DNA from: Comamonadaceae bacterium
Lineage (GTDB): Bacteria > Pseudomonadota > Gammaproteobacteria > Burkholderiales > Burkholderiaceae_C
Length of the DNA stretch: 64,000 bases
Reading direction: 5' to 3'
Assembly: GCA_947476285.1 (NCBI GenBank)
Contig: CANJPU010000012.1
Coordinates: 1-64,000 of the forward strand
A program made the translations under genes and the position numbers. The notes beneath the pieces are model-generated. The model saw only the letters and a program-made list of their open reading frames with translations. It did no database searches and had not been told where the DNA came from. Of this stretch, positions 1,903 to 63,757 are shown one piece after another; within the stretch, counting starts at the first letter, position 1, and every line of letters starts with the position of its first letter.

Positions 1903-1945
1903 GGGTTCTATTTTGCATGCAAGGCAGGACTTGCGTGACGTGCTG

Positions 1946-3982
1946 TCAAGGCCGCCCGAACAAACGACCCAGCAAATCCTTCACCAGATTCATCAGTGGG
2001 TCCTGCTCACCGGTGCCCTCACGCGGCTGGCGCTTGGGCCGCGGGATGTCAAACTCTGCATGCGAATCGATCCAGCGGTAACGCAAAGACTGCGCGAAGA
2101 AATCGCCGACCATCGGCAAGGCGCTGCGGGCGCCCTGGCCCCACTGGCCCATGGTGACACTGCTGTCGTTGAAACCCACCCAGGCGCCGGCCACCAGTTG
2201 CGGGTGCATCATGATGAACCAGCCGTCGGTGTTGCTCTGCGTGGTGCCGGTCTTGCCGGCCACATCGGCCTGTATGCCGTAGCGTGTGCGTATAGCTGCT
2301 CCGGTGCCCTCATCGACCACGCCGCGCATCACATCCACCAGCGTCAAGGCATTGGCGCGGGGGTAGACCTGCTCAGGCAAAACAGGAACAAACGTCTCCA
2401 GCACTTCGCCATCGCGCCTCTCGACCTGCGTCACCAGCACGGGCTCCAGATAGCGGCCCGCACTGGCGATGGTGCCGTAGGCGGTCACCATTTCCTTTAG
2501 GCTGACCGGGCTGGTGCCCAGCGCAAGCGAGGGCACCAGTTCCAGCTTGCTACTGCGCACGCCCATGCTCTGGGCCAGCGACGCCACGCGCGCGGGCCCG
2601 AGCTTTTGCATCAACTGGGCGGTGATGGTGTTCTTCGATTGCGCCAACCCCTCGCGCAGGCTCATGGAATTGCCGGTGGCCGGGATGGTGTCGGTGGGGG
2701 CCCAGACTTCACCGCCGCGTGAATGGTATGACACGACCTCGTCCACCAGTGTGTAGCCGGGATCAAAGCCCTGCATGAAGGCCGCGCCATAGACAAAGGG
2801 TTTGAAGGTCGAGCCGGGTTGCCTGCGCGCCTGCGCCACATGGTCGAATTGATCTTGCTCGAAATCACGGCTGCCCACCCAGGCTTTGACATGGCCATTG
2901 CGCGGATCAATCGCAAGGAACCCGGCCTGTAGCGGCTCGCGCGGCTGGCCGCGCTTGCGCTGCGCGTCGGCCATGGCCTGCAGGCTGGTAATCTGGCGCG
3001 CCACCGCCTGGTTGGCCGCCCTTTGCTGCCGGGCATTGATGGTGGTGCGCACCACGAGGCTATCTGCATAGATGTTGTAGCCTCTGCGGTCAGCCCATTC
3101 GATCAGCCACTTGCGCAGGTATTGCGCCACATGGGGCGCAATACCGGGTGGCTCGATCTGGCGCTCAAAATCAGTTACCAGCGGGCGTCTTTGAAGCCCC
3201 GCCAACTGGGCCGCATCGATCTTGCCGTGCCTGCTCATTTGGGCGAGCACGATGTTGCGCCGCTCAAGTGCCCGCTGGGGGTTGGTCACAGGGTTGTAGA
3301 TACTGTTGCCCTTGAGCATGCCGATCAGCGTGGCACTCTCCAGCACATCCAGGCGATCGGCGGACTTGTCGAAATAGGTGCGCGCCGCCATCTCGATTCC
3401 GAAGGCGTTGTACAAAAATGGCACGGTGTTGAGGTAGCTCTCAAGGATTTCATCCTTGGTGTAGACCGCCTCTATCTTCAAAGCGGTGATGGCCTCCTTG
3501 ACCTTGCGTGTGATCGTCACGGCTCGCCCGATTTCCTCGGGGTACATGTTGCGGGCCAGTTGCTGCGTGATGGTCGATCCACCCTGCCGCTTGCCTGTCA
3601 AGGTGTAGATCAAGGCCGCGCCGGTGCGGCGGATATCGATGCCGTGGTGCTGACGAAAGCGATGGTCTTCGGTGGCGATGAGCGCGTTGACCACATGGGG
3701 CGATATCTTGCCCAGCGACACCCATTGCCGATTGACGCGCTTGAATTGCGCCAAAACCACGCCATCAGCAGACATCAGCGCGGCCGGCACTTCAATCTTG
3801 GCCTTGCGCAGATCGCTCACGCTGGGCGTGAATGGCACGAGTGCCAGCACGAACAGCAGGGCAAAGGCCAGCGGCACCAGCGCGGCGCGCACCGGATGGC
3901 GTAGCACTGCACCCCACAGCCGCTGCAGATGTTCAGCGCCAAACCTGCCTACGGCAGACACACTGGCTTTGAAATCTGTCAT
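1946..3982 (-). CDS. Class A penicillin-binding protein (PBP1A-like)
   Basis: 678 aa bifunctional peptidoglycan synthase: glycosyltransferase and DD-transpeptidase facing the periplasm. One N-terminal membrane anchor lies near residues 32-52. The GT51 domain has the catalytic Glu105 in EDHRFRQHHGID and the GGSTITQQ motif (134-141). The transpeptidase has the active-site Ser391 in GSTFKPF, SKN at 449-451 and KTG at 577-579. Length is shorter than E. coli PBP1A (about 850 aa), consistent with a compact PBP1A/1C-like variant without large inserts. It ends 43 bp before the histidine kinase start, so the kinase may be read from the same transcript. Confidence 0.92.
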   Translation of the reverse strand: MTDFKASVSAVGRFGAEHLQRLWGAVLRHPVRAALVPLAFALLFVLALVPFTPSVSDLRKAKIEVPAALMSADGVVLAQFKRVNRQWVSLGKISPHVVNALIATEDHRFRQHHGIDIRRTGAALIYTLTGKRQGGSTITQQLARNMYPEEIGRAVTITRKVKEAITALKIEAVYTKDEILESYLNTVPFLYNAFGIEMAARTYFDKSADRLDVLESATLIGMLKGNSIYNPVTNPQRALERRNIVLAQMSRHGKIDAAQLAGLQRRPLVTDFERQIEPPGIAPHVAQYLRKWLIEWADRRGYNIYADSLVVRTTINARQQRAANQAVARQITSLQAMADAQRKRGQPREPLQAGFLAIDPRNGHVKAWVGSRDFEQDQFDHVAQARRQPGSTFKPFVYGAAFMQGFDPGYTLVDEVVSYHSRGGEVWAPTDTIPATGNSMSLREGLAQSKNTITAQLMQKLGPARVASLAQSMGVRSSKLELVPSLALGTSPVSLKEMVTAYGTIASAGRYLEPVLVTQVERRDGEVLETFVPVLPEQVYPRANALTLVDVMRGVVDEGTGAAIRTRYGIQADVAGKTGTTQSNTDGWFIMMHPQLVAGAWVGFNDSSVTMGQWGQGARSALPMVGDFFAQSLRYRWIDSHAEFDIPRPKRQPREGTGEQDPLMNLVKDLLGRLFGRP

Positions 3983-50373: not shown

Positions 50374-51459
50374 TCAGCCCCGCTCGCCCTTCAGAATATT
50401 GAGCGCCCTGGCCGACACGTTCTGGTAATCGGTGCCCGCTGCAGTGCGCCCTGGCACCGCATCGACGCCATGGCGGCCGCCTTCGTTCTGATAGATCATC
50501 ATCTCGGGCAGCACCGGCCTTCGATCGCGCGCTGCCTGCAGCCACATGCGCAGCGCCATACGCCACTGGCTGGGATCACCCTGGTTTTGGAACGCCGAAC
50601 GCGAGTGATACATCGTCCAGTTGTTCAGAATGATTGCCTCGCCCGGCGACATCCGAAAACTGATCTGCTGCGCCGCTGCCACATCACGCACCCTATCGAG
50701 CGCCTCCAGCTCCTTGGCGCTGAGTTCGCGGCCAAGCTCTGCCATGCCGGCGATGGCATGGTTGCGCAAATAGGTCGTGCTGATGTGGCCGTCCACCTTG
50801 CAGAACACCGGCACCGGGTAAGGCGACACGCCAGGCTGGTCATTGGGCTGTTCGCCACGCCGGTGATAGGGAAAGCCGCGATACAAAATCGGCAGCAAGT
50901 CAGGGCGCGTGGCCTGTATTTCCTGGTGCACGGCAATCGCGCTGGCCAGATGATTCTCACCGCCTTGGGCCGCATCACGCACGCACATCAGGCACATCAC
51001 CTCGCACATGTCGGTGTGCATGGCCAGCTCCTGGCTGGCCTTGGAGCCGCGTGAGCTTTGGTCGGCGGCAGAGGGCTTTTCCTCCTGTATGCGCACCAGC
51101 GTCTGGCCGAAGGCGTATTGCGATAGCGCCGCGCCCAGATGCATTCCCACAATCCAGAACATGCGCTCGACGTCATCGTCGCTATAACCGGCAACTGGCA
51201 TCCCACGCAGCAGCACCACGCCGCGGCCCAACTGCACCTCGCACAAAATGCCGGCAAGGTCTGCGTCCAGATCGGGATGGGAACAATGCGCTCGGGTGAT
51301 TGCATCGCGCGCAATCTGTCGGGTGCGTTCCAGGATTTCCACCAGAGCGCGCCGATGCCGATCTTCAAGCGCGAAAGCAAATTGATCGACCGATTGCAGC
51401 TCACTGCCGACCCAGGCCATGGGGTCTTCGATCTGTTCGGGGTGAACGTTTGCAATCAT
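50374..51459 (-). CDS. TauD/TfdA-family Fe(II)/2-oxoglutarate dioxygenase
   Basis: 361 aa from ATG 51459, which overlaps the permease stop (ATGA); a start at 51480 is possible but would overlap more. Fe ligands in AMHTDMCEVM (H-x-D) and the distal His in NWTMYHSRSAF; the 2-oxoglutarate-binding Arg is in WRMALRMWL. Family members hydroxylate taurine, 2,4-D or related acids. As last gene of an ABC uptake operon of the nitrate/sulfonate/taurine type, it probably acts on the imported compound. Confidence 0.88.
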   Translation of the reverse strand: MIANVHPEQIEDPMAWVGSELQSVDQFAFALEDRHRRALVEILERTRQIARDAITRAHCSHPDLDADLAGILCEVQLGRGVVLLRGMPVAGYSDDDVERMFWIVGMHLGAALSQYAFGQTLVRIQEEKPSAADQSSRGSKASQELAMHTDMCEVMCLMCVRDAAQGGENHLASAIAVHQEIQATRPDLLPILYRGFPYHRRGEQPNDQPGVSPYPVPVFCKVDGHISTTYLRNHAIAGMAELGRELSAKELEALDRVRDVAAAQQISFRMSPGEAIILNNWTMYHSRSAFQNQGDPSQWRMALRMWLQAARDRRPVLPEMMIYQNEGGRHGVDAVPGRTAAGTDYQNVSARALNILKGERG

Positions 51460-52322
51460 GACTTGCCGGCGCTCTGCCATGCCAGCACATGGTTCTCAAC
51501 CACTCGCAGGATGACCGACAGCACGCCACTTGCCATGACAAGCATGATCACCCCTGCGAACACGCCACTGGTGTTGAGATCCGCACTGGCCGTGCTGATG
51601 AGAAAGCCTATGCCCTTGGTGGCCGCGAGAAACTCACCCACCACCGCACCGATCAGCGAATTGGGCAGAGCGATCTTCACGCCAGACAAAATCCAGACGG
51701 TGGACGAAGGCAAGCCGATTTTGATCATGGCCTGCCAGCGGTTCGCGCCCAGCACGCGGCTGATGGCGATCAACTCCTGATCGACCTGGCGCACACCCTG
51801 GAAGGTGGTGAAGAACACCAGGAAGAAAACCACCAGCGCCGCCAGCGCCACCTTGGTGGCCAGACCGATGCCAAAGAAGATCACAAACAAGGGGCCGAGC
51901 GCGATCTTGGGCACCGAATAAAACATCAGCACAAATGGCTCCAGCAGTTTGCCGCACAAGCGAACCCAGCCCAGGATGAAGCCCAGGCTTGCACCCGCGA
52001 CGGTGCCGATCGCAAAGCCCGACATGGCCTCGGTCATGGTCACCTGAAGGCCGATCCACAACACGCCTTGCTCTGACCATGTCTGCAGTTGCTTAGCCAC
52101 CAGCAGCGGTGAACTGGTGTAGAAGACCAGATCTTTGATGCTGCCCACCAACTGCCACAGCCCAAGAAAGGCCACGGCCAGCAACACCTGCGCGATCGGC
52201 AGCCAGGTGCTTTCGGCAGTCACCCACCAGGACTCACGCCTGGGCTGGTACACAGGGGGTCGCGCCTCGCCCGTCGTGGCCGCCGCATAAGCGCCTGGCG
52301 CAGCGTTTTGCTCTGCGTTCAC
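51456..52322 (-). CDS. ABC transporter permease (TauC/SsuC/NitT type)
   Basis: 288 aa. About six membrane segments and the EAA loop region as GVRQVDQELIAISRVLGANRWQAMIKIGLPSSTVWILSGVKIALPNSLIGAVVGEFLAATKGIGFLI, typical of nitrate/sulfonate/bicarbonate importers. Overlaps the ATPase gene by 4 bp upstream and the dioxygenase by ATGA downstream. Imports a small anionic organic compound across the inner membrane; identity unknown. Confidence 0.92.
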   Translation of the reverse strand: MNAEQNAAPGAYAAATTGEARPPVYQPRRESWWVTAESTWLPIAQVLLAVAFLGLWQLVGSIKDLVFYTSSPLLVAKQLQTWSEQGVLWIGLQVTMTEAMSGFAIGTVAGASLGFILGWVRLCGKLLEPFVLMFYSVPKIALGPLFVIFFGIGLATKVALAALVVFFLVFFTTFQGVRQVDQELIAISRVLGANRWQAMIKIGLPSSTVWILSGVKIALPNSLIGAVVGEFLAATKGIGFLISTASADLNTSGVFAGVIMLVMASGVLSVILRVVENHVLAWQSAGKS

Positions 52323-53107
52323 GCGTGGGTCTCCTCGTCGCTCTTGATCAGCGACCAGAGCTTGGCCAGGTAGTGTTGAAACTCAGGCGCGGTCTGTATC
52401 GAGACCGCGTCTCGAAAGACCGACTTGTCCATCTCGATCGGAACTTCGGCCTTGATGGTGCCGGGCCTGCCGCTCATGACGATCACCCGCTCAGCCAACA
52501 CCACGGCCTCACCCAGATCATGCGTGACAAAAACCATGGTGCTGCCGGTGTCGCGCCACAGGCGCAGCACATCGGTGTGCATGGTCGTGCGTAGCTGCGC
52601 ATCCAGGCTGCCGAAGGGCTCGTCCATCAGATAGACATCGGGCTTGTAGACCAAGGTGCGGGCAATGCCCACGCGCTTGCGCATGCCGCCGGAGAGTTGG
52701 CTGATGTATTTTTTCTCGAAGCCAGACAAACCCACCTGCTCGATGACCTCTGCCACCCGCCGGTCCGCGTCGCGCTGCTGGCCCCTGACTTCCAGCGGAA
52801 AGCGGATGTTGTCTTCGACCGTGCGCCAGGGCAGCAGCAGGTCTTTCTGGGTGACAAAGCCAACGCGCTGATTGGGGCCGTTGACTTCGTTGCCCATGTA
52901 GCGAACATAGCCATCGGTGGCAAGCACTATGCCCGCCACAATGGACAGCAGCGTCGATTTACCGCAGCCGCTGGGGCCCACGATGGCGACGAATTCGCCT
53001 TGGCGGATGCTCAAGGAAATATGGTTGAGCGCGCGAACATTTCCAAAGCTCTTGCCGACGTTCACGTACTCAATGGCGGGCACGTTCACCGCTGCGGTTG
53101 CGGGCAT
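52319..53107 (-). CDS. ABC transporter ATP-binding protein (TauB/SsuB type)
   Basis: 262 aa. Walker A GPSGCGKST, Q-loop GFVTQKDLLLPWRTVEDN, signature LSGGMRKRVGIARTL, Walker B VYLMDEPFGSLD, and switch His in VFVTHDLGEA. The L-L-P-W-x-T-V segment after the Q-loop is characteristic of the nitrate/taurine/sulfonate family. Second gene in the SBP-ATPase-permease-dioxygenase operon. Confidence 0.94.
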   Translation of the reverse strand: MPATAAVNVPAIEYVNVGKSFGNVRALNHISLSIRQGEFVAIVGPSGCGKSTLLSIVAGIVLATDGYVRYMGNEVNGPNQRVGFVTQKDLLLPWRTVEDNIRFPLEVRGQQRDADRRVAEVIEQVGLSGFEKKYISQLSGGMRKRVGIARTLVYKPDVYLMDEPFGSLDAQLRTTMHTDVLRLWRDTGSTMVFVTHDLGEAVVLAERVIVMSGRPGTIKAEVPIEMDKSVFRDAVSIQTAPEFQHYLAKLWSLIKSDEETHA

Positions 53108-53140
53108 GCAGTCTTTCTTTTCGATGAGCCGATGCTGGCT

Positions 53141-54166
53141 TCAACGCGGTAGGCTTGCCTGGGCTGCTTTCACGACGTCGGCAAGAAGCATGCTGTCCGG
53201 ATTCAATGCCTTGACCTGCACAGCAAAGGCGCCGGTTGCGTTATTCTGGGTGCGCTTGACGGCCGCAGCAGTGGGAACCGGTGTGAGAAAAGCCTGATAG
53301 TTTCGGTCCCACACCAGATTGAACAGCGCATCGTCAAGGTTGGCAAAACGGCCCCGGATGGCCTTGGCTGCGCCTGCTGGATTGGTCTTGACGAAATTGG
53401 AAGCCGCAAGATACGCGCGTATCACGCGCTCGACCACCTCGCGGTTGGCCGCGTAGTACGGGGCGGGCACTGAGAGCGGCACGACGAAATCATCGGCCTC
53501 GGTACCGGGAAACTCGCCCCTGGGCCCGTCCACCCACAGCACGCCAGCGCCCTGCGCCACTGCACGCTCGGCAAAGGGCGAGGAGACGATGATGCCATCG
53601 ACATGGCCGGTGGCTAGAGCCGCCACCATGCCGTCGTTGGCCACATAGGTGACGGTCACGTTGACGCCCGCAACCTCGGCGGCCTGCTTGACCATCACGG
53701 TGAAGGTGCTGCTCTGAGACGGGCTCGCGATAGTGGCGCCCTTCAGTGCCTTCAGGCGGTCCATCACGGACGCGTTGGCCGGCAACTTGGCGGCAGCCGC
53801 CAGCTTCTTGGTCACCACCAGATAGCCGGGCAGGCCGCTGTACAGGCGCAGCGGCACGTAGACCATTTTCCCCTGCGCGGTGGCATTGAGGGTGGAGTCC
53901 AGACTGCCAGTGGCCAGCTCGACGCTGCCCGACAGCGCCGCCTGAATCGCGCCAGCACCACTGCGCGCATCCAGCAGCGTCACATCCAGGCGCTCACGCT
54001 TGAAGAACCCGCCTTCCTGCGCGATAAATGACAAGCCTTGCCCAATGCTGAAACTCGACAAAGCAATCGTCAGCTTGGTGTCTTGCGCCATCGCAGTGGC
54101 GCTGGCCATCACGCAGGCCGCAGTGGCAATCCATCTGGGCATGTTCTTGAAAATCCAGGAGCTCAT
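53141..54166 (-). CDS. Periplasmic substrate-binding protein (NMT1/SsuA-like)
   Basis: 341 aa from ATG 54166 (GAGG 7 nt upstream), with signal peptide ending ASATAMA. The mature protein has the type 2 periplasmic binding fold: TKLTIALSSFSIGQGLSFIAQEGGFFKRERLDVTLLDARSGAGAIQAALSGSVELATGS, then LKGATIASPSQSSTFTVMV and DGMVAALATGHVDGIIVSSPFAERAV. It matches the NMT1/THI5-like family that binds sulfonates, nitrate or thiamine precursors. First gene of the operon and divergent from the hydroxyacid dehydrogenase. Confidence 0.9.
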   Translation of the reverse strand: MSSWIFKNMPRWIATAACVMASATAMAQDTKLTIALSSFSIGQGLSFIAQEGGFFKRERLDVTLLDARSGAGAIQAALSGSVELATGSLDSTLNATAQGKMVYVPLRLYSGLPGYLVVTKKLAAAAKLPANASVMDRLKALKGATIASPSQSSTFTVMVKQAAEVAGVNVTVTYVANDGMVAALATGHVDGIIVSSPFAERAVAQGAGVLWVDGPRGEFPGTEADDFVVPLSVPAPYYAANREVVERVIRAYLAASNFVKTNPAGAAKAIRGRFANLDDALFNLVWDRNYQAFLTPVPTAAAVKRTQNNATGAFAVQVKALNPDSMLLADVVKAAQASLPR

Positions 54167-54342
54167 TGGAATCCTCAATTTGGTTTGGCAGCAGGAAGGC
54201 CGTCTTGGCAATTGAACTGCTGTGAATAAGGCAATCAACACGGCCGCAATGACACGCACGCCTTGGCCGCTTCTACAATAGCACGTCGTACTGTTTTACT
54301 CAATGCCTCAGGTGCGGTTTATCGCCCGTCATCGGTCTGCCT

Positions 54343-55377
54343 ATGAACTCAAGCAAAACGCCCCGCCCTCGCATCTTCATCACCTGCATGCCCAGCGCAT
54401 ACGATCGGCTCATCGGGCCGCGCGGCACGGCGGTGCTGGAGAGTTTCGCGACCGTTGATCGCAACATGCAAGAGCGCCTGCTCAGCGATGAGGAAATGCT
54501 GCAGCGCACTGCACAAGCCGACGGCATCATTGTCGGCTGGCCCGGACAAAGCAACGCACTATCGAAAACCCTGATCGACGCAGCCGGGTCGCTTCGCATC
54601 GTGGGCCAGCTCGGTCAGTCGATCAAGCAGATCGATACCGACGCAGTGTTCGCACGTGGGCTTGCGCTGGTCAACTCACCCAGCGCATTCGCCAACGCCG
54701 TGGCCGAGTTCACCCTGGCCATGATGCTGGGCGCGCGCCACCGCCTGCCTGCACACGACCGCGCCATGCGCATGGGCACCGAAGCCTGGGGCATCAAGAA
54801 CGCGTCCATCCTCGGGCGCGAGCTGTGCGGCGCCACCGTGGGCCTGATCGGATTGGGATGGATTGGCAAGAGAGTGGCGCACCTACTGGCACCTTTCCAG
54901 GTGGAGTTACTGGTGCACGACCCTTACGCGGCCATGGGCCCGGACACGCCCGCAGGCGTTCGCTTCACCTCGCTGGATGAGTTGCTAACCTGCTGCGACA
55001 TCGTCTCAGTGCATGCAGCGCTGACCCAGACCACCACCCACATGATCGGGCGAGTTCAACTTGAGCAGATGAAGATGGACGCCCTGCTGGTCAATACCGC
55101 ACGTGGCGGCCTGGTGCATGAAGAAGCCTTGATCGACAAGCTGCAGCGCTGCCCCGCGTTCATGGCCGCGCTGGATGTGTTTGCGAGCGAACCGCTCGCG
55201 CCTGATTCGCCTCTGCGCACCATGGACAATGTGCTGCTCTCGTCCCACCGCTCCGGCCACACGGTGCAGGCATATGAAGGCATGGGCACCCAGGTGATTG
55301 AAGATTTTCAGCGTTTCTTTGCAGGGCAAGCGCTGCGGTACCGCGTCACTGCGGCCCAGTTGAGCGCGCTGAAATGA
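54343..55377 (+). CDS. D-2-hydroxyacid dehydrogenase (NAD-dependent)
   Basis: 344 aa. Rossmann loop GLGWIGKR (170-177), catalytic Arg254 in NTARGGLV, Glu283 in ASEPL and His302 in SSHRSG. The usual T-P-H is S-S-H here, but the acid-base His is kept. Cytoplasmic; reduces 2-oxoacids or oxidises D-2-hydroxyacids (SerA/LdhA superfamily). It stands divergent to the ABC uptake operon and convergent to iclR, the stop codons adjoining (55377/55378). Confidence 0.9.
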   Translation: MNSSKTPRPRIFITCMPSAYDRLIGPRGTAVLESFATVDRNMQERLLSDEEMLQRTAQADGIIVGWPGQSNALSKTLIDAAGSLRIVGQLGQSIKQIDTDAVFARGLALVNSPSAFANAVAEFTLAMMLGARHRLPAHDRAMRMGTEAWGIKNASILGRELCGATVGLIGLGWIGKRVAHLLAPFQVELLVHDPYAAMGPDTPAGVRFTSLDELLTCCDIVSVHAALTQTTTHMIGRVQLEQMKMDALLVNTARGGLVHEEALIDKLQRCPAFMAALDVFASEPLAPDSPLRTMDNVLLSSHRSGHTVQAYEGMGTQVIEDFQRFFAGQALRYRVTAAQLSALK

Positions 55378-56130
55378 TCAGTCGGTCGCCGCATCAAACC
55401 GGGACACATCGCCGCCCAGCCGCTCGGTGAGCGCGCGGGCTGCATCGCGCACTTGTCGCTCAAGCCGCTTTGTCATCGGGCCGATGAGTCGGTGCTCAGG
55501 CCCGGTGAGCACGATCACGCCGATGCACGGCCCCTTGCCTGAGGCGAAGATCGGCGACGCCACGCCAGTCATGCCCACTGCGTTCTGGCCGGTGGTGGTC
55601 TCTACCAGGCGCAGGCGGATGTTGCGAAACTTGCCCGCCTTGCCCGAGAACGTGTCGAACACATTGCTGGTCGCCCCCTTGCCCAGCGGCACCATGTCGC
55701 CGGGCGAGCCGTGGTCGCGAATGGCCATGGGGGAATCGACCCGGTAGAGCGTGATGCGATGATCGCCCTGGCGAATCATGTAGGACGCGCTTTCACGCGT
55801 CTGCTCGACCAGGGCACGCAGCACCGGCATCACCACATCCTCGGGTTGCACCGCGTTCTGGAACATATTGGCCAGGCGCAGCGGCTTGGAGCCGAGCTGA
55901 AATCCGCCGCCTTCGGTGCGCACCACATAGCCCTGTTGCTCCAGCGTGCCCAGGATGCGCACGATGGTGCTCTTGTACAAACCAGTGCGCGCGGCCAGAT
56001 CGGCCAGCGACAAAGTGGGCGGGCCGGGCAAGAAGGCGTCGAGCAGCGACAACGCGCGCTGTACGGAGGCAACCGGCTTGTCGCCCTCGCCCTCATCGTC
56101 TTCGAGCTCGATGTCTTTGCGGCGCGCCAC
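55378..56130 (-). CDS. IclR-family transcriptional regulator
   Basis: 250 aa. Winged helix at about residues 20-80 (SVQRALSLLDAFLPGPPTLSLADLAARTGLYKSTIVRILGTLEQQGYV), then an effector domain with SASYMIRQGDHRITLYRVDSP, VASPIFASGKGPCIGVIVLTG. It is the last gene in the minus-strand operon, 98 bp after capA, and probably controls it and the neighbouring uptake genes according to a small aromatic or carboxylic acid. Its operator is not identified. Confidence 0.92.
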   Translation of the reverse strand: MARRKDIELEDDEGEGDKPVASVQRALSLLDAFLPGPPTLSLADLAARTGLYKSTIVRILGTLEQQGYVVRTEGGGFQLGSKPLRLANMFQNAVQPEDVVMPVLRALVEQTRESASYMIRQGDHRITLYRVDSPMAIRDHGSPGDMVPLGKGATSNVFDTFSGKAGKFRNIRLRLVETTTGQNAVGMTGVASPIFASGKGPCIGVIVLTGPEHRLIGPMTKRLERQVRDAARALTERLGGDVSRFDAATD

Positions 56131-56228: not shown

Positions 56229-57362
56229 TCACGCCTTCGAATGCAAAAACACCTCCGTGCCCTCTTCGTTCCAGACATACTTGACGTTCAGCCCTTCGGA
56301 TTCGGAGATGGACGCCATGTAGTCATGCACCTCGTCGCCCCTGGCCTGGCCCCGGCGGTAGATCATGGGCTCAGCCTGCGGGTTGATGTGGCAGGGCACA
56401 TAGGAGACGCTGGTGATTTCACCCTTGGCTGAAATGCGCGCCTTCACGATCATGGTGGTCAGGCCATCCGGATGAAAGGCGTGCGTGGGGTAAGGCAGCG
56501 GTGTGACCTTGTAGTGTTTTTTCACCAGGCCCTTCATCTTGGTGGTGCCGCGGTATTTCTCCGGCCCTGCGCCCTGCTCGAAAGCGAAATTGCCCAGCGA
56601 ATAGAAAATGACTTTGCCTTTGTAGACCTCAGCACCTTTGAGCATGTGCGGATGGCCGCCCAGAATCAGGTCGGCGCCCGCATCCACCGCCGCCCGCCCG
56701 ACTTCGTAGCAGTAGTCGGGAATGACGCGCGGAATGTAGTGCTGGCCCCAGTGGTAGGACACCACGCACACATCGCATTGCTTTGCCAGCGCCGCAATGT
56801 CCGCTTTCATTGCCTCCAGGTCTTCCTTGCGCGCCATGGAGATGATCTGCGGCGGTGTGGCGGGCTGGTAGTCCCACTTGTCATACACAGTCCAGATGCG
56901 CACCGGTGCATTGCCGGGCATGTCGTCAGTGGCTTCGTAGCCATCAGGGCCGGTGCAGTTGTAGGCAAGAAAGCCCACCTTCACGCCCTTGCGATCGACG
57001 ATCACAGGCTTGCGCGCTTCGGCAATATTGCGCCCGGCCCCCACGGGTGCAATGCCCGCGGCCTTGAGGCGCTCAATGGAATCGAGCAAGGCGGCTGCGC
57101 CCCAGTCCATGGTGTGATTGTTCGACAGTGACACCACATCGAAGCCAATCTCGGTGTAGGCCTCGATGTTGCGCGGATGGGTGAAGGTCGCATGGTGCGG
57201 ATCGGGATGCCCACCCTCAGCGAACATCTGCTCGGAGTTGGTGAACCGGATATCGGCCGACCGAATTTCCGCAGCCACATGCTGCATCAAGCCCGTGGGC
57301 GGCACGCGGTCGATGTGAATGTCGCCCACGGCGGCCAGGGTCAATGTATCTGCTTCTGACAT
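56229..57362 (-). CDS. CapA-family protein (calcineurin-like phosphoesterase fold)
   Basis: 377 aa without signal peptide. Motifs of PGA_cap proteins: LAAVGDIHIDRVPP (metal Asp/His), IRFTNSEQMFAEGG, FDVVSLSNNHTMDWGAAALLDSIERLKAAGIAPVGAGRNIAEARKPVIVDRKGVKVGFLAYN, CVVSYHWGQHYIP, ILGGHPHMLKGAEVYKGKVIFYSLGNFAFEQ. CapA is classically tied to poly-gamma-glutamate export, but cytoplasmic members in catabolic clusters occur and their substrate is unknown. Located 45 bp after the selenoprotein gene in the same operon. Confidence 0.88.
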   Translation of the reverse strand: MSEADTLTLAAVGDIHIDRVPPTGLMQHVAAEIRSADIRFTNSEQMFAEGGHPDPHHATFTHPRNIEAYTEIGFDVVSLSNNHTMDWGAAALLDSIERLKAAGIAPVGAGRNIAEARKPVIVDRKGVKVGFLAYNCTGPDGYEATDDMPGNAPVRIWTVYDKWDYQPATPPQIISMARKEDLEAMKADIAALAKQCDVCVVSYHWGQHYIPRVIPDYCYEVGRAAVDAGADLILGGHPHMLKGAEVYKGKVIFYSLGNFAFEQGAGPEKYRGTTKMKGLVKKHYKVTPLPYPTHAFHPDGLTTMIVKARISAKGEITSVSYVPCHINPQAEPMIYRRGQARGDEVHDYMASISESEGLNVKYVWNEEGTEVFLHSKA

Positions 57363-57407: not shown

Positions 57408-57947
57408 TCAAACCCGCTCCACGCTGGCGTGCGCCGCCTTCAACAAGGCGAGCGTGTCGGCGCCTGCCCTGATCGCCATGCGATCGACGTCGGCCTCCGG
57501 CACACCGGCCAGCGGATGGGGCACCGCGATCATTCGCAAGTTGGGCAGGCCTTGCTGTTTCGCGATCATCTTGCCCAGTGACTCATAGGTGTCGGTCACG
57601 AACAGAATGGTCGGTATGCCCTGCTTCTCAAGCTGTATGGCGTCATGGACACTCCACGACGTGCAGCTACCTCAGTCGCCTGAGCCGATCAGCACCAGAT
57701 CGCAGGTTTCGGTCAGGCCCACAATGGCTTGGAGCGTGGCCGGAATGTTCACATACGATTTCTGGAACACAGCGCCCACCCGGGCTGCGACCCTGGCCAC
57801 CAGTTCATTGCGCACGCCTGCTAGCAAGCGGCCTGCGTTGTCCTTGCGGTTGTCCAGAATGCCCACGCTCATGCCAGCGGTCTTGCGCATCGGCGCCAGC
57901 GACACACCAGCATGCGCGATATCTCCATCAGGTCTCACGATCAACAT
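57408..57947 (-). CDS. Predicted UGSC-motif selenoprotein (in-frame UGA as selenocysteine)
   Basis: 179 aa if the TGA at 57672-57674 is read as selenocysteine (residue 92). From ATG 57947 (AAAGGG 8 nt upstream) the product runs to DLVLIGSGD, then TGA-GGT-AGC-TGC, that is U-G-S-C, and continues in the same frame as TSWSVHDAIQLEKQGIPTILFVTDTYESLGKM to ASVERV-stop. The downstream 87 codons keep coding character and an alpha/beta layout. The motif is the one after which the bacterial UGSC (seleno)protein family is named, as far as I recall. U-x-x-C is a redox-active arrangement like C-x-x-C. A SECIS-like hairpin follows the UGA. Function unknown; the operon suggests thiol/CoA-linked catabolism. 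Confidence 0.85.
57641..57661 (-). promoter_or_regulatory. SECIS-like hairpin after the in-frame UGA
   Basis: Minus-strand RNA: 9-bp stem CGUCGUGGA / UCCAUGACG (eight Watson-Crick pairs, one G-U) closed by loop GUG. The loop starts 20 nt after the UGA, and its first base is G. Bacterial SECIS elements need an apical loop with an early G about 16-37 nt after the UGA, so this fits. Confidence 0.75.
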
Positions 57948-57973: not shown

Positions 57974-59044
57974 CTACTCCACCAGCACCGAAGCCGACCG
58001 GCATCCACCATTGGTCGGCGCCCAGGACGACTGCCGGCCCGGGCCACCCACTACCAGCAAATTGAATCGCTCTGGCTCGATCACGATAGGGAGCTGAGCG
58101 TTCGGGTTGGTGCCCTGCATCCAGATCGGCCAGTCGTGCATGCCCCACATCGGGCCGCGCATGTGCGCACCCAGGGTGATGCGCGCGTGTTCATACAGAA
58201 AACGCAGCGTGTCCTTGCGATCAAAGCCGCCGCTGGAGATCACTTGTGCGTGTTCGGGGCAGATGAACAGCCACACCTCTGGCGTGATCATGGTGTGCGG
58301 GTTGTTCGCCCCGATGTTGGCGATGGTGGCGCTGATGTTCTCAAGCACATAAGGCGCAGTCTCGCCCACATGCTCGTTGATGTTGTGCGGCGCTTCGGCG
58401 GGGCCAACAGTCACCACGTTTTGCTGGGCATCGAAGCCGCGCGCCTGCGCCAGCGAGCCCCAGGGGTTTTGTTCTTCGTTCTCAGCGATGCAGTAGGTGT
58501 ACTTGCCCGGTGTTCCCTGCGTGGCATGGTCGCCCACGCCGGGGCGGGCACCACCGACATTGAGCATCACCAGACGCAGCGCGCGCCCGATGGTGGCATT
58601 GGCGCGGTTGCCCGGACCGAATGCACCGGAGCTGCAGTTCATCTTGAGCTCATGGCGGATCGGGCCATTGACCACCACCAGCGCGGCGGCCGGATGCGTG
58701 GTGGGCTGCAGCGCGGCCAGGTTCACCTGCGGCATGGTCGCAGCCTTGACCGCGGCGATCACCACGCGCATGTATTGCGGCCTGCACCCAGCCATCACCG
58801 CATTGGCTGCGATGACTTCCACCGTGGCATTGCCCCGGCGCACCGGCACCACACCGATGACTTCATGCGGATCGCGCCCCGACGCCTCCACGAATCGCTT
58901 CACTCGATCAGGCGTTGGCGGCACCACCGGCAGGCCATCGCCCCACAGGCGCTCTTCAATCATCTCCCATGTCGATTCATAGGAATCGTCGGGCAGCTCC
59001 ACGAGATGGGGTGCCGGGGTTTGCGCGCCTTGGGTGTCGCTCAT
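57974..59044 (-). CDS. Conserved protein of unknown function, partner of the UGSC protein
   Basis: 356 aa, soluble, no signal peptide. Distinct segments: ERLWGDGLPVVPPTPDRV, VIGVVPVRRGNATVEVIAANAVMAGCRPQY, TTHPAAALVVVNGPI, GAFGPGNRANATIGRALRLVMLNVGG, GKYTYCIAENEEQNPWG, and NNPHTMITPEVWLFICPEHA. These look like family-wide motifs and I recall similar proteins of unknown function in metagenomic proteobacteria, but I cannot assign a fold. The ATG overlaps the acyl-CoA synthetase stop (59041-59044), and the UGSC gene begins 26 bp later, which argues for a shared function. Confidence 0.75.
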   Translation of the reverse strand: MSDTQGAQTPAPHLVELPDDSYESTWEMIEERLWGDGLPVVPPTPDRVKRFVEASGRDPHEVIGVVPVRRGNATVEVIAANAVMAGCRPQYMRVVIAAVKAATMPQVNLAALQPTTHPAAALVVVNGPIRHELKMNCSSGAFGPGNRANATIGRALRLVMLNVGGARPGVGDHATQGTPGKYTYCIAENEEQNPWGSLAQARGFDAQQNVVTVGPAEAPHNINEHVGETAPYVLENISATIANIGANNPHTMITPEVWLFICPEHAQVISSGGFDRKDTLRFLYEHARITLGAHMRGPMWGMHDWPIWMQGTNPNAQLPIVIEPERFNLLVVGGPGRQSSWAPTNGGCRSASVLVE

Positions 59045-61263
59045 GTCGGATGTGCTCCACGGGTGCTGATCATCACGTCCAGTGCCTCGATCTCGCGGCC
59101 ACGCACGCGCAGCGGGTTGACTTCCAGTGCCTCCAGATTTGCGCCCAGGCTTTGTGCGGCCGACACGATGGACAGCACCGCCTGGGCCAACTGATCGGCA
59201 TCGGCAGATTCGAAACCACGCGCGCCAAACAGCACCGGCGCGCCCTTGAGTTCGCTGAGCATGCCCTTGACCTGCGCATGGCTCACCGGCAGCACGCGAA
59301 TGCTTGCATCCTTGAGTACCTCGACCCAGGTGCCGCCCATGGCCACGGTGAGGATGTTGCCAAAGAGTGGATCAGCAGTCACGCCAACCAAGAGCTCGGT
59401 TGCTGGCGCACGCATGGGAGAAATCAGCACGCCCCGCACCTGCGCATGGGGCGCGCGGCTGGCCGCCGCATCGCACACTGCGCGGTAGGCCGCGCCGGCA
59501 TCAGAGGGCGCCACGTTCAGGTGGACGCCGCCAATGTCGGTCTTGTGCGCGATTTCGGCTGCGCAGATTTTCACCGCCAGCGCCGGGCCATGCTGCGCCG
59601 CTGCAGCGATGGCCTCTTGCTCTGATCTCACCAGGCTGGACGGCACCACCGGCACGCCGTGCTGCGCCAGCAATTCACGGCCCAGGTCCTCTGGCCAGTT
59701 GCCGCTGATGGCTTGCACACCCGCCTGCGCCACGGCGCGCGGCTGCTCTGCCTGCGCGCTCTCGCGGGCGTGCTCATCGCGGCTTTGCACCCAGCCGCAG
59801 GCATGCTTGATGGCCACCAGCGCCAGATCGACACCGGCCAGCAGATGAATGCCGCTGCCCATGAGCATGGCCCGCTGTTCGGGCGCCACATCCAGGCAGG
59901 TGCTGGATGCGAGGAACACCGGCACCGGCGCATCGGCAACAATCTGACCGAGGATCTCTAGCCGCCTGTCGATGGGCACCAGCACCGCCGGGCTCGCGCT
60001 CGCCGTCTGCGGCGCCGGTGTGGCGGCTGGCCGGGTGGCCAGGAATGAGGCGTTCATCAGCGAGAACATGAAGTCAAAGCCCGCGTCCTGCGCGGCGATC
60101 TCCATGAGATCGTCCTCCGCCTTGGTGGGGCGCTTTCTCGCCACCGAGTTGCCGGCACCTGTGACATCGAGCGGATTGACCAGCGTGGCATAAGGCGGCA
60201 GCAGCTCTTTCATGCGCCGCACGGTTTCATCGCCAAAGGGCGGCAACTCAAGGCGATAGTCTTGCGCCCTGTCGGCGATCACGCTACAGCCGCCGCCAGA
60301 GGAAGTAACCACACCCATGCGCCGGCCCTTGGGCAAGCGCGGGCTGTAGCCAAACAGCCCAGCGGTGACCAGAAGTTCCTCAATGCTGTGCACCCGCACC
60401 ACGCCGGTCTGGCGCATGGCTGCGTCCACCACCGCATCATCGGTGGCCAGCGCGCCGGTGTGGGCCAGGCCCGCGCGGCTACCGGCGGCACTGCGGCCGG
60501 TCTTCATCGCCACGATCGGCTTGCCGATGGTCAGTGCGCGGCGGGCCAGCTCCATGAATCGCACTGGCTCGCGCAGTGACTCCAAAAACAGCGCGATGCA
60601 CTTGGTGTCTTCGTCCTCCAGCAGGTACTCCACGATGTCCATGGTGGAGACCACTGCGGCATTGCCAACCGACACCCAAAGGCTGGTGCCAATCGCATGG
60701 GCCTGGGCAAATTCAAACGCGGCGCGCGTCATGGAGCCGCTCTCGAACACACCGGCTACCGGCCCCGCCAGCAAGGGCGGCGACACCGCCACCGCCCAAG
60801 GAACCGCATTGGCACGCACATTGGCAAAGCCAGTGGTGTTGGGCCCGAGCAAGGTAATGCCAAGGTGCCGCGCTGTCTGCGCCAATTCATCCTGGCGGTT
60901 GCGCCCTGAGTCGCCCGCCTCGGCAAAGCCCGATGCCAATGCCACCGCGTAGCGGATGCCGGCTGCGGCCACGTCGGGCAAGATGCCGGCCACGGTGGAG
61001 GCCGGCGTCATGATGAAGGCCAGATCGATCGGACCTTCGATCTCGCGCAGGCTGGGCACAGCGGCGTGGCCGAACACAGTGGCTCGGTTCGGATTGACCG
61101 GCACGATGCGAATCGCGCCCTGCCCAGGCAGCGCCACGCTGTTGAACAGCCAACGCGCCCAGCTTGATGACTCACTGGCGCCGATCACCGCAATCGAGCG
61201 CGGCGAGAACAAGGCCTTCAGACTGGCCGGCGCAATTCGGGTGGTGGTGGTGGTGGCTGTCAT
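59041..61263 (-). CDS. NDP-forming acyl-CoA synthetase (fused alpha and beta parts)
   Basis: 740 aa. CoA-binding Rossmann domain (FSPRSIAVIGASESSSWARWLFNS), succinyl-CoA-ligase-like domain with GPNTTGF and FESGSMTRAAFEFAQ, phospho-His268 in GLAHTGALATDD, then a C-terminal ATP-grasp domain (GPALAVKICAAEIAHKTDIGGVHLNV; LEVNPL). No GNAT domain, unlike the paralogue at 37 kb. It interconverts acyl-CoA, phosphate and NDP with acid, CoA and NTP. It likely activates or recycles the acid handled by this operon. ATGA overlap with the next gene; its own start overlaps the stop of the upstream crotonase. Confidence 0.9.
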   Translation of the reverse strand: MTATTTTTRIAPASLKALFSPRSIAVIGASESSSWARWLFNSVALPGQGAIRIVPVNPNRATVFGHAAVPSLREIEGPIDLAFIMTPASTVAGILPDVAAAGIRYAVALASGFAEAGDSGRNRQDELAQTARHLGITLLGPNTTGFANVRANAVPWAVAVSPPLLAGPVAGVFESGSMTRAAFEFAQAHAIGTSLWVSVGNAAVVSTMDIVEYLLEDEDTKCIALFLESLREPVRFMELARRALTIGKPIVAMKTGRSAAGSRAGLAHTGALATDDAVVDAAMRQTGVVRVHSIEELLVTAGLFGYSPRLPKGRRMGVVTSSGGGCSVIADRAQDYRLELPPFGDETVRRMKELLPPYATLVNPLDVTGAGNSVARKRPTKAEDDLMEIAAQDAGFDFMFSLMNASFLATRPAATPAPQTASASPAVLVPIDRRLEILGQIVADAPVPVFLASSTCLDVAPEQRAMLMGSGIHLLAGVDLALVAIKHACGWVQSRDEHARESAQAEQPRAVAQAGVQAISGNWPEDLGRELLAQHGVPVVPSSLVRSEQEAIAAAAQHGPALAVKICAAEIAHKTDIGGVHLNVAPSDAGAAYRAVCDAAASRAPHAQVRGVLISPMRAPATELLVGVTADPLFGNILTVAMGGTWVEVLKDASIRVLPVSHAQVKGMLSELKGAPVLFGARGFESADADQLAQAVLSIVSAAQSLGANLEALEVNPLRVRGREIEALDVMISTRGAHPT

Positions 61264-62165
61264 GATGCGTCGCGCTCATGTGTCCAATCGGCGAAATCGG
61301 CAGCGGCGTCCCGCAGCACCTGATGAGGATCGCCATCGCGCAGCGCCCGAAGAAAGTTGAACTCGCCGGGTCTGAAGTGCACATTGCTCGCCATCGCGCC
61401 CATCATGGTGGCGATGGCAAAGCCTGTTCCCACATGCAGTTTCTCAAGAGCCGCCATGGCCACGTATTTTTCCGCCGCTATGCCATCGCGCACCATGGGC
61501 GCGATGATGGACGCAAACTCAACCGCCTTGTCGTCCAGCGCATCGGGCGCGACCACTTCGTCGATCAGGCCATACCCGAGGGCCTGCGCGGCGGTCCATT
61601 GCGCGCCGCAGTAGACAAACTCTTTCGCCCGCTTGAGGCCCACCGCATTAATCAAGAGACTCAAGTCGCCGTCGACGCCAATTTGCCGCCAGCGCGGATT
61701 GGCAAACAAGGCGTCGTGCGAGGCCACCGACAGATCGCAGCACAACGCAAGATAGAAACCCGGCCCATGACACAAGCCGCGTGCCGCCAAAATGGTGACC
61801 TTGGAGCAGCGCACCACCCGCGAATACAAGCCCCGGCTGCCCCAGAAGTATTTGTCATGCGCGCGAAACCGAGCGCGCAGGCTGGGCAATCGGCCCGGCT
61901 CGTCGCCATCGGTGGGGGCGTACAGATCAGCCGCCTGCGCCAGATGCAGCCCGGCACACAGGTCGGGACCCTGCGCGCGGATGATGATGGACTTGATCCT
62001 GTGGTCGTCTTCCAGCGCGCTGAGGTGTTCGCAAAAGCGGTCGATCATTGGCACTGTCATCGCGTTGCGATAGCCGGGCCGGCGCAGCTCGATCACCCCG
62101 TACTGGCCTTCCAGGTTGAGCGAGCAGCTCACCAGCTCATTATCTTGACTGTGATCGCTGCTCAT
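61260..62165 (-). CDS. Enoyl-CoA hydratase/isomerase-family protein
   Basis: 301 aa crotonase fold. Typical blocks are VIELRRPGYRNAMTVPMIDRFCEHLSALEDDHRIKSIIIRAQGPDLCAGLHL, with a CoA-pocket A/C-A-G-x-x-L, ILAARGLCHGPGFYLALCCDLSVASHDALFANPRWRQIGVDGD and AQALGYGLIDEVV. The two catalytic Glu of classical crotonase are not obvious, so it may be a hydrolase- or isomerase-type member. Overlaps neighbours by 4 bp on both sides. Confidence 0.85.
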   Translation of the reverse strand: MSSDHSQDNELVSCSLNLEGQYGVIELRRPGYRNAMTVPMIDRFCEHLSALEDDHRIKSIIIRAQGPDLCAGLHLAQAADLYAPTDGDEPGRLPSLRARFRAHDKYFWGSRGLYSRVVRCSKVTILAARGLCHGPGFYLALCCDLSVASHDALFANPRWRQIGVDGDLSLLINAVGLKRAKEFVYCGAQWTAAQALGYGLIDEVVAPDALDDKAVEFASIIAPMVRDGIAAEKYVAMAALEKLHVGTGFAIATMMGAMASNVHFRPGEFNFLRALRDGDPHQVLRDAAADFADWTHERDAS

Positions 62166-62854
62166 TTCATCCCCAACTGAGTTGGCACCTGCATGCCTGC
62201 GCCAAAAAATCCGGCCAGATCAAAATCTTGCCCCACGCCCATCGCGTCCAGGTTGGCATTGACATTCATCTTGGACACCGTGATGGCGTCCAAGGGCATT
62301 TGCGCGGCACGCTCTGCCAGCTCCATGGCGCGCGCATGCACCTGGTCATTTGGCACCGCCAAGTTGACCAGACCCATCTCTTCTGCTTCTCGCACCGTCA
62401 GTGGCTCGGCGCTGAGCAGCCATGCCTTGGCACGGTCCAGCCGCATGGTCAGCGCGGCCATCATGAAGTTGGCCGAGGGCACCACATCAAAGGGCGAAGG
62501 CATGTTCGACGCGATGTCGGCCACCGTGATGTCAGCGTAAAGGCCGATCAACGCGCCCATGGGCCCGATCGGCCCATGCAACTGCGCGATCACCGGCTTT
62601 CTGCAAAACACCATGGTCTGGTAGAGGCCGGCCGGCCCGAGGTAAGTGCCGAGCGGGCTGCTTGGCGGCACGGGCTGCGCCGATGTGGCTGACGGCAACA
62701 CCTGCAAGACAATGACTTTGACCGAATCGTCCGCGGCCAGGCGCAGCAGCTCGTTGCACAAGTGCTCGCCAGCGGCCCTGTTCTGCAAGGCCAGCAGCTC
62801 GGCGTTCTCGATGGTGATGATGGCGACGGGTGAGGTGGGGGATGGGGTGTTCAT
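62162..62854 (-). CDS. Enoyl-CoA hydratase/isomerase-family protein (short)
   Basis: 230 aa, shorter than the usual 255-300 aa. VAIITIENAELLALQNRAAGEHLCNELLRLAADDSVKVIVLQVLPSAT marks the crotonase start, CRKPVIAQLHGPIGPMGALIGLYADITVADIASNMPSPFDVVPSANFMMAALTMRL the central part and REAEEMGLVNLAVPNDQVHARAMELAERAA the end. The normal A-G-A-D-L oxyanion segment is replaced by SSPLGTYLG, so catalytic competence is doubtful. Possibly a partner subunit of a neighbouring crotonase. Confidence 0.8.
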   Translation of the reverse strand: MNTPSPTSPVAIITIENAELLALQNRAAGEHLCNELLRLAADDSVKVIVLQVLPSATSAQPVPPSSPLGTYLGPAGLYQTMVFCRKPVIAQLHGPIGPMGALIGLYADITVADIASNMPSPFDVVPSANFMMAALTMRLDRAKAWLLSAEPLTVREAEEMGLVNLAVPNDQVHARAMELAERAAQMPLDAITVSKMNVNANLDAMGVGQDFDLAGFFGAGMQVPTQLGMK

Positions 62855-62863
62855 GAATTGCGC

Positions 62864-63757
62864 TCAAACATCATGGTGAGACTTACCCCGCTGGCGCTCT
62901 TCTTGTTGCAACGCTGCCTTGATGCCGCCGGTGCGAGCGGTCTTGAAGAAGTTGTGTTCGTCCGCGCCTCTGCGAATGAAATGCGAAGACAAGAGGCCGC
63001 TGATCACCGGCACGTTGGAAGCCAGCAGAGATTCGCCAACGCGAATACGCGCCTTCAGGTAGGTGAGCAAACCGCTGGGCCGGGCCGCGATGCCCGCAGC
63101 CATGTCCTGCACATGCTCGGACAGCTTTTCCCTGGGCACAATGCTGTGCGCCATGCCAAAGCGGCGCGCCGCCTGCGCATCGATTGGACGGCCGGTGTAG
63201 CCGATCAGGCGCGCGGCCTTGGTTCCCAAAATGCGATTGAGGTGAATGCTGGCCGTGGCGCCGGCCGGGCCCATGAAGCTCGCCTCCAATGCGCCGAAAC
63301 GCGCGTCTTCACTCACCACGATGAAATCGCAGCGCGAGGCCAGCAAGAAATACGACGCGGCCGCGCAATAGCCTTGCACCTGGGCGATGGTCACCTTGGC
63401 GCAGCGGTTGATCGCCTGGCCAAAGCCGGCACGCCCCCATGACAACTGGCTGTGATAGAGGTAGGCGTGGGTGAGGGTGAAGCGCTTGGTCTTGCCGCGC
63501 TGGCCCCAGTCTTCGTCGAGCTGCGCGCCGCTGGAAAAAGACGAGCCCACCGATTCAAAAATGATCACCCGCACATCGTCATCGGCTTCAAGCTGATGAA
63601 TCAACTCGGTCATGCGGTCGCGCATGGGCACCGTGAGGGCGTTGCGCTTGTCGTCGCGGTTCAGGATGATGCGGCCAAAGCCCCGCGCCCGATCGATTTC
63701 ACACAAGACTTGATGCTGCGCGGCCGCTATGTTCTCTGGCGATCCGTAATGGGTCAT
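62864..63757 (-). CDS. Enoyl-CoA hydratase/isomerase-family protein
   Basis: 297 aa. FGRIILNRDDKRNALTVPMRDRMTELIHQLEADDDVRVIIFESVGSSFSSGAQLDEDWGQ gives the standard N-terminal crotonase domain with oxyanion-hole S-S-G-A-Q-L, then VTIAQVQGYCAAASYFLLASRCDFIVVSEDARFGALEASFMGPAGA and IDAQAARRFGMAHSIVP. The first structural gene after the CoA-transferase in the operon (35 bp between). Three different crotonases in a row imply several CoA-thioester steps. Confidence 0.87.
   Translation of the reverse strand: MTHYGSPENIAAAQHQVLCEIDRARGFGRIILNRDDKRNALTVPMRDRMTELIHQLEADDDVRVIIFESVGSSFSSGAQLDEDWGQRGKTKRFTLTHAYLYHSQLSWGRAGFGQAINRCAKVTIAQVQGYCAAASYFLLASRCDFIVVSEDARFGALEASFMGPAGATASIHLNRILGTKAARLIGYTGRPIDAQAARRFGMAHSIVPREKLSEHVQDMAAGIAARPSGLLTYLKARIRVGESLLASNVPVISGLLSSHFIRRGADEHNFFKTARTGGIKAALQQEERQRGKSHHDV

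Follow-up and report, generated by a model that had tools for sequence, protein, structure and literature searches.

A UGSC-family selenoprotein gene of a Comamonadaceae bacterium, its constant partner and a probable distant kinship to GrdB and PrdB

In aquatic metagenomes, few selenoproteins are as common as those of the UGSC family (PMC2398784, PMC9402790), which has been named since 2008. Passages of the Global Ocean Sampling (GOS) survey present it as a major selenoprotein family of 255 proteins (PMC2398784), a passage of another study attributes 8.2% of selenoprotein genes to it (PMC9402790), and Table 3 of a 2016 survey counts 33 UGSC selenoproteins in 26 organisms (PMC5029168). UGSC proteins have been called thioredoxin-like in print (passages of PMC2398784 and PMC13188914), and a passage of a 2026 review includes them among selenoproteins of largely uncharacterized function (PMC13188914). 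A UxxC motif is also found in PrdB and GrdB (passages of PMC1088965 and PMC13188914). The UGSC passages of the open selenoprotein literature, subscription papers lying outside the search, contain no link to GrdB or PrdB and no named partner gene, save a fusion to 'Unknown_1' in the GOS survey. The window analyzed here, the first 64,000 nucleotides of contig CANJPU010000012.1 (C12) from a Comamonadaceae bacterium (assembly GCA_947476285.1), contains a gene of this family whose in-frame TGA is very probably read as selenocysteine (Sec), together with the gene for a constant partner protein. The best explanation overall, at a probability of about 55%, is that the two make up a selenoenzyme related to GrdB/PrdB and acting on small organic acids. 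The gene by itself is very probably an ordinary further member of an already named family; the partner gene, the distant GrdB/PrdB kinship and an 11-fold set of Sec copies in one genome are the parts that go further. An earlier reading made from the letters alone (the sequence-only reading) had proposed the selenoprotein and missed both the family name and these three parts. The central features of the locus are as follows.

57408..57947, minus strand: UGSC-family selenoprotein gene, 179 amino acids, Sec92 and Cys95; ATG at 57947, stop TGA at 57408-57410
57672..57674, minus strand: in-frame TGA, predicted Sec92, from the read-through frame and the aligned TGA in other copies
57641..57661, minus strand: selenocysteine insertion sequence (SECIS)-like hairpin CGTCGTGGA-GTG-TCCATGACG, beginning 10 bases past the TGA, with a covarying stem and a conserved loop AGT
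57974..59044, minus strand: companion, 356 amino acids, 'DGLPVVPPT...NAVMAGC...RANATIGRA' family; constant partner of UGSC, unmatched in Pfam and NCBIfam at E 0.001

Segments 57672-57947 and 57408-57671 of the minus strand form one frame, and its sole interruption is the TGA at 57672-57674, followed by GGT AGC TGC. The sequence-only reading had described two such segments parted only by a TGA ahead of U-G-S-C, and both coordinates and frame hold on re-reading. The read-through product, M...GSGD-U-GSC-TSW...ERV, has 179 residues and matches PF24696, the UGSC family of Pfam, with 150.7 bits (E 5.6e-44; gathering cut-off 25 bits) over residues 3-169, thus confirming the coding-like sequence proposed for both flanks of the TGA; a normal TGA stop ends the frame. 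Because this match continues across the TGA, and 10 other UGSC copies of the same genome have a TGA at the aligned position, the read-through frame is not a product of chance. The NCBIfam model NF041046, 'UGSC family (seleno)protein', gives 122.9 bits (E 1.1e-35), 2.1 bits short of its curated cut-off of 125, and the protein is therefore filed under PF24696. It shares with the described family the match over residues 3-169, the U-G-S-C motif and the occurrence of Sec with Cys homologues, and differs in lying 2 bits under NF041046 and in being one of 11 Sec copies in a single genome. The sequence-only reading had noted that [C/U]GSC proteins include natural selenoproteins. Mechanical open reading frame (ORF) calling stops at residue 91, giving the truncated 91-residue protein that had been foreseen. 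Ordinary ORF calling splits UGSC genes in two in this way, and neither Pfam nor NCBIfam has a model that the partner gene matches at E 0.001.

The genome (4.89 Mb in 117 contigs, completeness 94.9, contamination 1.3) encodes the whole Sec system, with selA (567.2 bits), selB (407.5 bits), selD (427 bits) and the tRNA-Sec gene selC (74 bits) all over their cut-offs; ARAGORN agrees on the tRNA-Sec, with anticodon tca. These four genes had been named as a check on the sequence-only reading. Within the genus, selB exceeds its cut-off in four of 31 genomes, a count that includes the present one. Homologues carry Sec or Cys at position 92, as had also been asked: of 75 UGSC-bearing public loci, selected through the partner as described below, 69 have Sec, five have Cys only and one (L069) has neither. 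None of 53 aligned homologues ends at the Sec position, whereas termination at GSGD would have spoken for a true stop. In this 53-row alignment, Sec or Cys occupies position 92 in 52 rows and Cys occupies position 95 in 49, and from the conservation of both residues Sec92 and Cys95 may form a redox pair, as earlier proposed. Two haloarchaeal loci have Cys at the Sec position, and Cys fusions with CSTC occur in five genomes of the bacterium's own family. U-G-S-S variants, in which Ser replaces Cys at position 95 and the TGA is kept, are seen in L083, L085 and L089. Loci L085, L111 and L121 lie on contigs titled 'Bordetella parapertussis' and L081 on one titled 'Methanobacteriaceae archaeon', labels that may stem from errors of binning or naming. 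A thioredoxin-reductase-like gene with a CADC motif, named by reading (locus L008, contig C95, 1487-2401, minus strand), is flanked by selB and the tRNA-Sec gene and is a possible electron donor for selenoproteins.

A further line of evidence for recoding is the SECIS-like hairpin. The RNA after the window TGA folds as CGUCGUGGA-GUG-UCCAUGACG (z -2.1 over 51 bases); of six copies of this genome that were folded, z is below -2 in three and from -0.4 to -1.3 in the other three. Codons were surveyed in 87 Sec copies (11 from this genome and 76 from public loci), of which one with Ns was dropped. In the remaining 86, the loop codon, seventh after the TGA, is AGT whenever it encodes Ser (63/63), TGT whenever it encodes Cys (11/11) and GGT in both Gly cases (2/2), with Val, Ala or Thr in the other ten. 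Background usage in the scored genes of the window genome is 217 AGT among 3118 Ser codons and 67 TGT among 571 Cys codons. Moreover, where codon +6 encodes Trp or Cys and the loop codon is AGT, TGT or GGT (72 copies), TGG at +6 always accompanies a C-ending +8 codon (61/61) and TGC a G-ending one (11/11). Kinship among sequences inflates these hairpin counts; both codon rules nevertheless hold across phyla.

Covariation was measured in 78 copies (76 distinct), eight that differ in loop or register having been left out. In the stem of nine pairs, 26 cells are doubly changed versus 6.5 in shuffles, none of 500 shuffles reaching this figure, and the stem's pairing of 86.8% falls to at most 52% when the partner strand is slid. 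Of 76 rows, 40 lack the outermost pair and 23 the one next to it. For the window gene, 1.3% of redrawings with synonymous codons that keep the protein give an equally stable hairpin; this share is below 5% for eight of the 11 copies in the genome, and the other three do not stand out (5.1, 8.1 and 33.5%). Five Cys copies of the same type have AGC, TGC, ACG or GTC as the loop codon, and a stem about as stable is retained in three of seven Cys copies tested. No curated Rfam family matched the hairpin. The recoding of the UGA is thus supported by the sel genes, the Cys and Sec homologues and the hairpin.

The 356-residue neighbor is a constant partner of UGSC proteins. The genome has 12 companion copies, and each adjoins or is fused to one of 12 UGSC copies. 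Fusions account for three of these, one of them without the motif, and are found in other genomes as well. A GOS fusion of UGSC to 'Unknown_1' (passage of PMC2398784) resembles the situation in this genome in joining UGSC to another conserved domain, Unknown_1 being a possible but uncertain equivalent of the companion. When the partner alone was used to scan the genome collection, at least 578 stretches were confirmed; the best 80 of these, here called the public loci, come from Chloroflexota, Rokuibacteriota, Pseudomonadota, Actinomycetota, Nitrospinota, haloarchaea and others. Seventy-five of the 80 have a UGSC gene near the companion, and the remaining five are four contig ends (L056, L059, L061, L103) and L087. 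Conversely, all 13 loci in other genomes selected through UGSC and over the cut-off carry the companion, beside or fused, including L149, a Cys copy split between frames; a fourteenth hit (L042), weak and under the cut-off, is without it. Hence UGSC and companion in all likelihood form a two-protein system. Across 48 aligned relatives of the companion, Pfam and NCBIfam again gave nothing at E 0.001 (best E 0.018 and 0.072, to unrelated names), and the companion profile found nothing among PDB sequences at E 10. Cys87 is conserved in all 48 rows. Tandem companion genes stand beside a single UGSC gene in L092 (three matches), L097, L117, L127 and L088. At L027 (7350-8786, minus strand) the companion has an extra N-terminal stretch with CPTC, thioredoxin-like by reading and possibly a built-in reductant.

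PF24696 has 12 matches in the genome. Eleven contain exactly one in-frame TGA, each followed by G-[S/A/T]-C, and the twelfth is the fusion protein lacking the motif. Eleven Sec copies in one genome are far above the level of the 2016 survey, with its 33 in 26 organisms (PMC5029168). Elsewhere, UGSC matches occur in eight of 298 genomes of the family (seven over the cut-off) and four of 397 of the phylum, one or two in each; these two samples share some genomes, and scoring covered no more than 8 to 11 candidates in any genome. The 12 copies appear to be old or acquired lineages rather than a recent burst, because 10 changes, at least seven of them forced, are required to place the 12 partner copies on a 102-member tree (bootstrap rough).

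Sequence comparison also suggests that UGSC and the Sec domain of GrdB/PrdB probably share a distant ancestry. When 53 UGSC members were compared with NCBIfam, the families hit by most members after UGSC itself were TIGR01917 (GrdB; 27 members, best E 1.2e-5), GrdF (12), TIGR01918 (12), GrdH (11) and PrdB (nine, best E 4.3e-5). The window protein matches PrdB at E 0.0014 over residues 80-167 and TIGR01917 at E 0.016. Seven PF07355 relatives from other genomes (best PrdB E 7.8e-27) served as a PrdB-like set, to which UGSC aligned in hhalign with E 2e-4 and a probability of 47%. This alignment places Sec92 and Cys95 on the CPVC of the PrdB-like proteins and also joins an 'LE..GI.T' helix and the final '(H/F)PL'. 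In a control rerun (E 3e-4, probability 40%, score 32.96), the companion gave 0.35 and reversed columns 0.18, and none of 200 column shuffles was as good; among at most 78 neighbor clusters, the top eight of which were UGSC pieces, the best unrelated decoy scored 26.97. Addition of the PrdB-like Sec protein of the window genome to the set improved the result to E 4.9e-5 and 68%. This protein, a selenoprotein candidate of a second kind in the genome, is encoded at L139 (contig C27, about 1258-2463, plus strand), with '...LLSPV-U-PLC-TRAV...' and 401 residues when read through; a possible hairpin (-12.8 kcal/mol) follows its TGA.

UGSC thus resembles PrdB and GrdB/GrdF/GrdH in having UxxC at the same alignment position, in the helix and final motifs, and in sub-threshold profile matches. 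On the other hand, only part of the length of these models is matched, the UGSC partner matches no known subunit, and the genetic setting of UGSC is one of coenzyme A (CoA) and importer genes. Curated cut-offs lie far above the window protein, at 602.2 versus 14.1 bits for TIGR01917 and 300 versus 18.1 bits for TIGR04483, and it is not filed as a GrdB or PrdB member. The structure model of the UGSC protein is a five-stranded Rossmann-like alpha/beta fold (predicted local distance difference test score, pLDDT, 95). N33, K63, U92, F/Y121 (Tyr in the window protein) and H144 are each kept in 48-52 of 53 rows, each lying 1-3 residues past one of the five strands in the model, a placement expected of an active-site rim.

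Reductive cleavage of substituted carboxylates by the UGSC-companion pair can be proposed tentatively, at slightly less than even odds. UGSC and companion would constitute one enzyme, in which the UGSC protein would be a small, free-standing cousin of the protein B Sec domain of the glycine, betaine, sarcosine and D-proline reductases (GrdB/PrdB), and the companion would hold and orient the substrate in place of the pyruvoyl subunit. In these reductases the pyruvoyl subunit is GrdE or PrdA. Sec92 would attack a substrate carbon so that the substituent leaves, Cys95 would resolve the selenide to give a Se-S bond, and a thioredoxin-type reductase would restore it. Substrates might be small organic acids imported by Bug, tripartite ATP-independent periplasmic (TRAP) or ATP-binding cassette (ABC) systems, with products handed to CoA ligases or transferases and crotonases, and the 12 divergent pairs would be isoenzymes for different substrates. 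In line with this, a GrdB-like operon is linked to C-F cleavage of fluoroacetate in the abstract of PMC10838667. The broadest form of the proposal is slightly less likely still. It holds that UGSC and the TDGLP companion are an unrecognized class of two-protein selenoenzymes, reductases derived from the GrdB/PrdB Sec domain with a new partner replacing the pyruvoyl subunit. They would remove substituents from a wide range of different organic acids in free-living bacteria and, in a Cys form, in archaea, and this species would have collected 11 Sec isoenzymes. If true, glycine/proline-reductase-type selenium chemistry could extend beyond amino-acid fermenters; the partner and the GrdB/PrdB kinship make UGSC function a testable question.

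Against the kinship, the Pfam scans showed no GRDB hit, PF07355 giving no match to the window protein at E 0.001 or at E 10. Among the 11 Sec copies of the genome, P6, Sec92, G93 and Cys95 are kept in all, whereas K63 is kept in five and H144 in three, in contrast with the 53-row alignment. The pyruvoyl subunit PF09338 had no match in the window genome, though control genomes likewise gave none, and did not match the companion.

Other readings account for parts of these data. The TGA could be a real stop, through a nonsense mutation or sequencing error, leaving the 91-residue fragment at which mechanical ORF calling terminates; this is scarcely credible given a TGA in the same place in 10 other copies of the genome and in 69 of 75 public UGSC loci, the covarying hairpin and the complete Sec system. 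An unlikely, though more serious, alternative is a thioredoxin-like thiol-disulfide oxidoreductase or peroxidase for which the companion is a dedicated substrate protein. UxxC is common to many redox selenoproteins and the literature supposes this view, yet the model is Rossmann-like, and the two PDB structure lists for it contain common alpha/beta folds and name no thioredoxin among the 50 matches listed in either, an absence that does not exclude a family. Furthermore, sequence kinship points to GrdB/PrdB, and twelve divergent copies amid catabolic genes would be unusual for housekeeping redox repair. UGSC looks distantly related to the GrdB/PrdB Sec domain rather than thioredoxin-like, as it has been called in print.

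Metals provide the remaining alternative, in which the pair would be akin to the SAO system and handle metals or organometals with Sec as a ligand. Metal binding is supposed for some selenoproteins (passage of PMC13188914), and the importer binding protein downstream matches SaoX weakly, at 34.2 bits. The SaoX cut-off is 300 bits, however, SsuA scores higher (68.8 bits), and other copies adjoin Bug binding proteins and CoA enzymes, with no search having been aimed at metal genes; a role in metal handling is accordingly improbable. The two-protein selenoenzyme acting on organic acids is therefore preferred, and the surrounding genes are listed below.

59041..61263, minus strand: NDP-forming acyl-CoA synthetase-like protein, 740 amino acids, overlapping the companion gene by 4 bases
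61260..62165, minus strand: enoyl-CoA hydratase/isomerase (crotonase) family
62162..62854, minus strand: crotonase family protein
62864..63757, minus strand: crotonase family protein
56229..57362, minus strand: CapA/PGA_cap (PF09587) family, directly downstream of the UGSC gene
55378..56130, minus strand: IclR-type regulator
54343..55377, plus strand: D-2-hydroxyacid dehydrogenase
51456..54259, minus strand: ABC importer with a tested binding protein of NMT1/SsuA type and with an ATPase and a permease that were identified by reading

The sequence-only reading had placed the gene in a CoA-thioester operon, and this description stands: upstream of the companion gene, the same strand carries the acyl-CoA synthetase-like gene and three crotonase-family genes. 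The IclR-type protein is probably the local regulator. Elsewhere in the genome the copies are found amid CoA transferases, acyl-CoA dehydrogenases and Bug or TRAP importers, as named by reading. Bug-type binding proteins are near nine of 11 loci of this genome and 22 of 80 public loci, and 14 of the 80 have a family III CoA transferase nearby, all as raw counts uncorrected for the background away from UGSC. Relatives of the CoA ligase, regulator, binding protein and permease of the window are near none of the 80 public loci, those of the three crotonases near 0, 4 and 7, and those of the ATPase, from a common family, near 10. Because the other operon genes of the window rarely recur, the pair and not the operon is the unit. 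A TauD/TfdA-type dioxygenase by reading (368 amino acids, 50374-51480, minus strand) lies just downstream of the ABC importer. CapA (PGA_cap) genes stand beside two UGSC pairs of this genome (window 56229-57362; L031 5246-6373) and near one of the 80 public loci.
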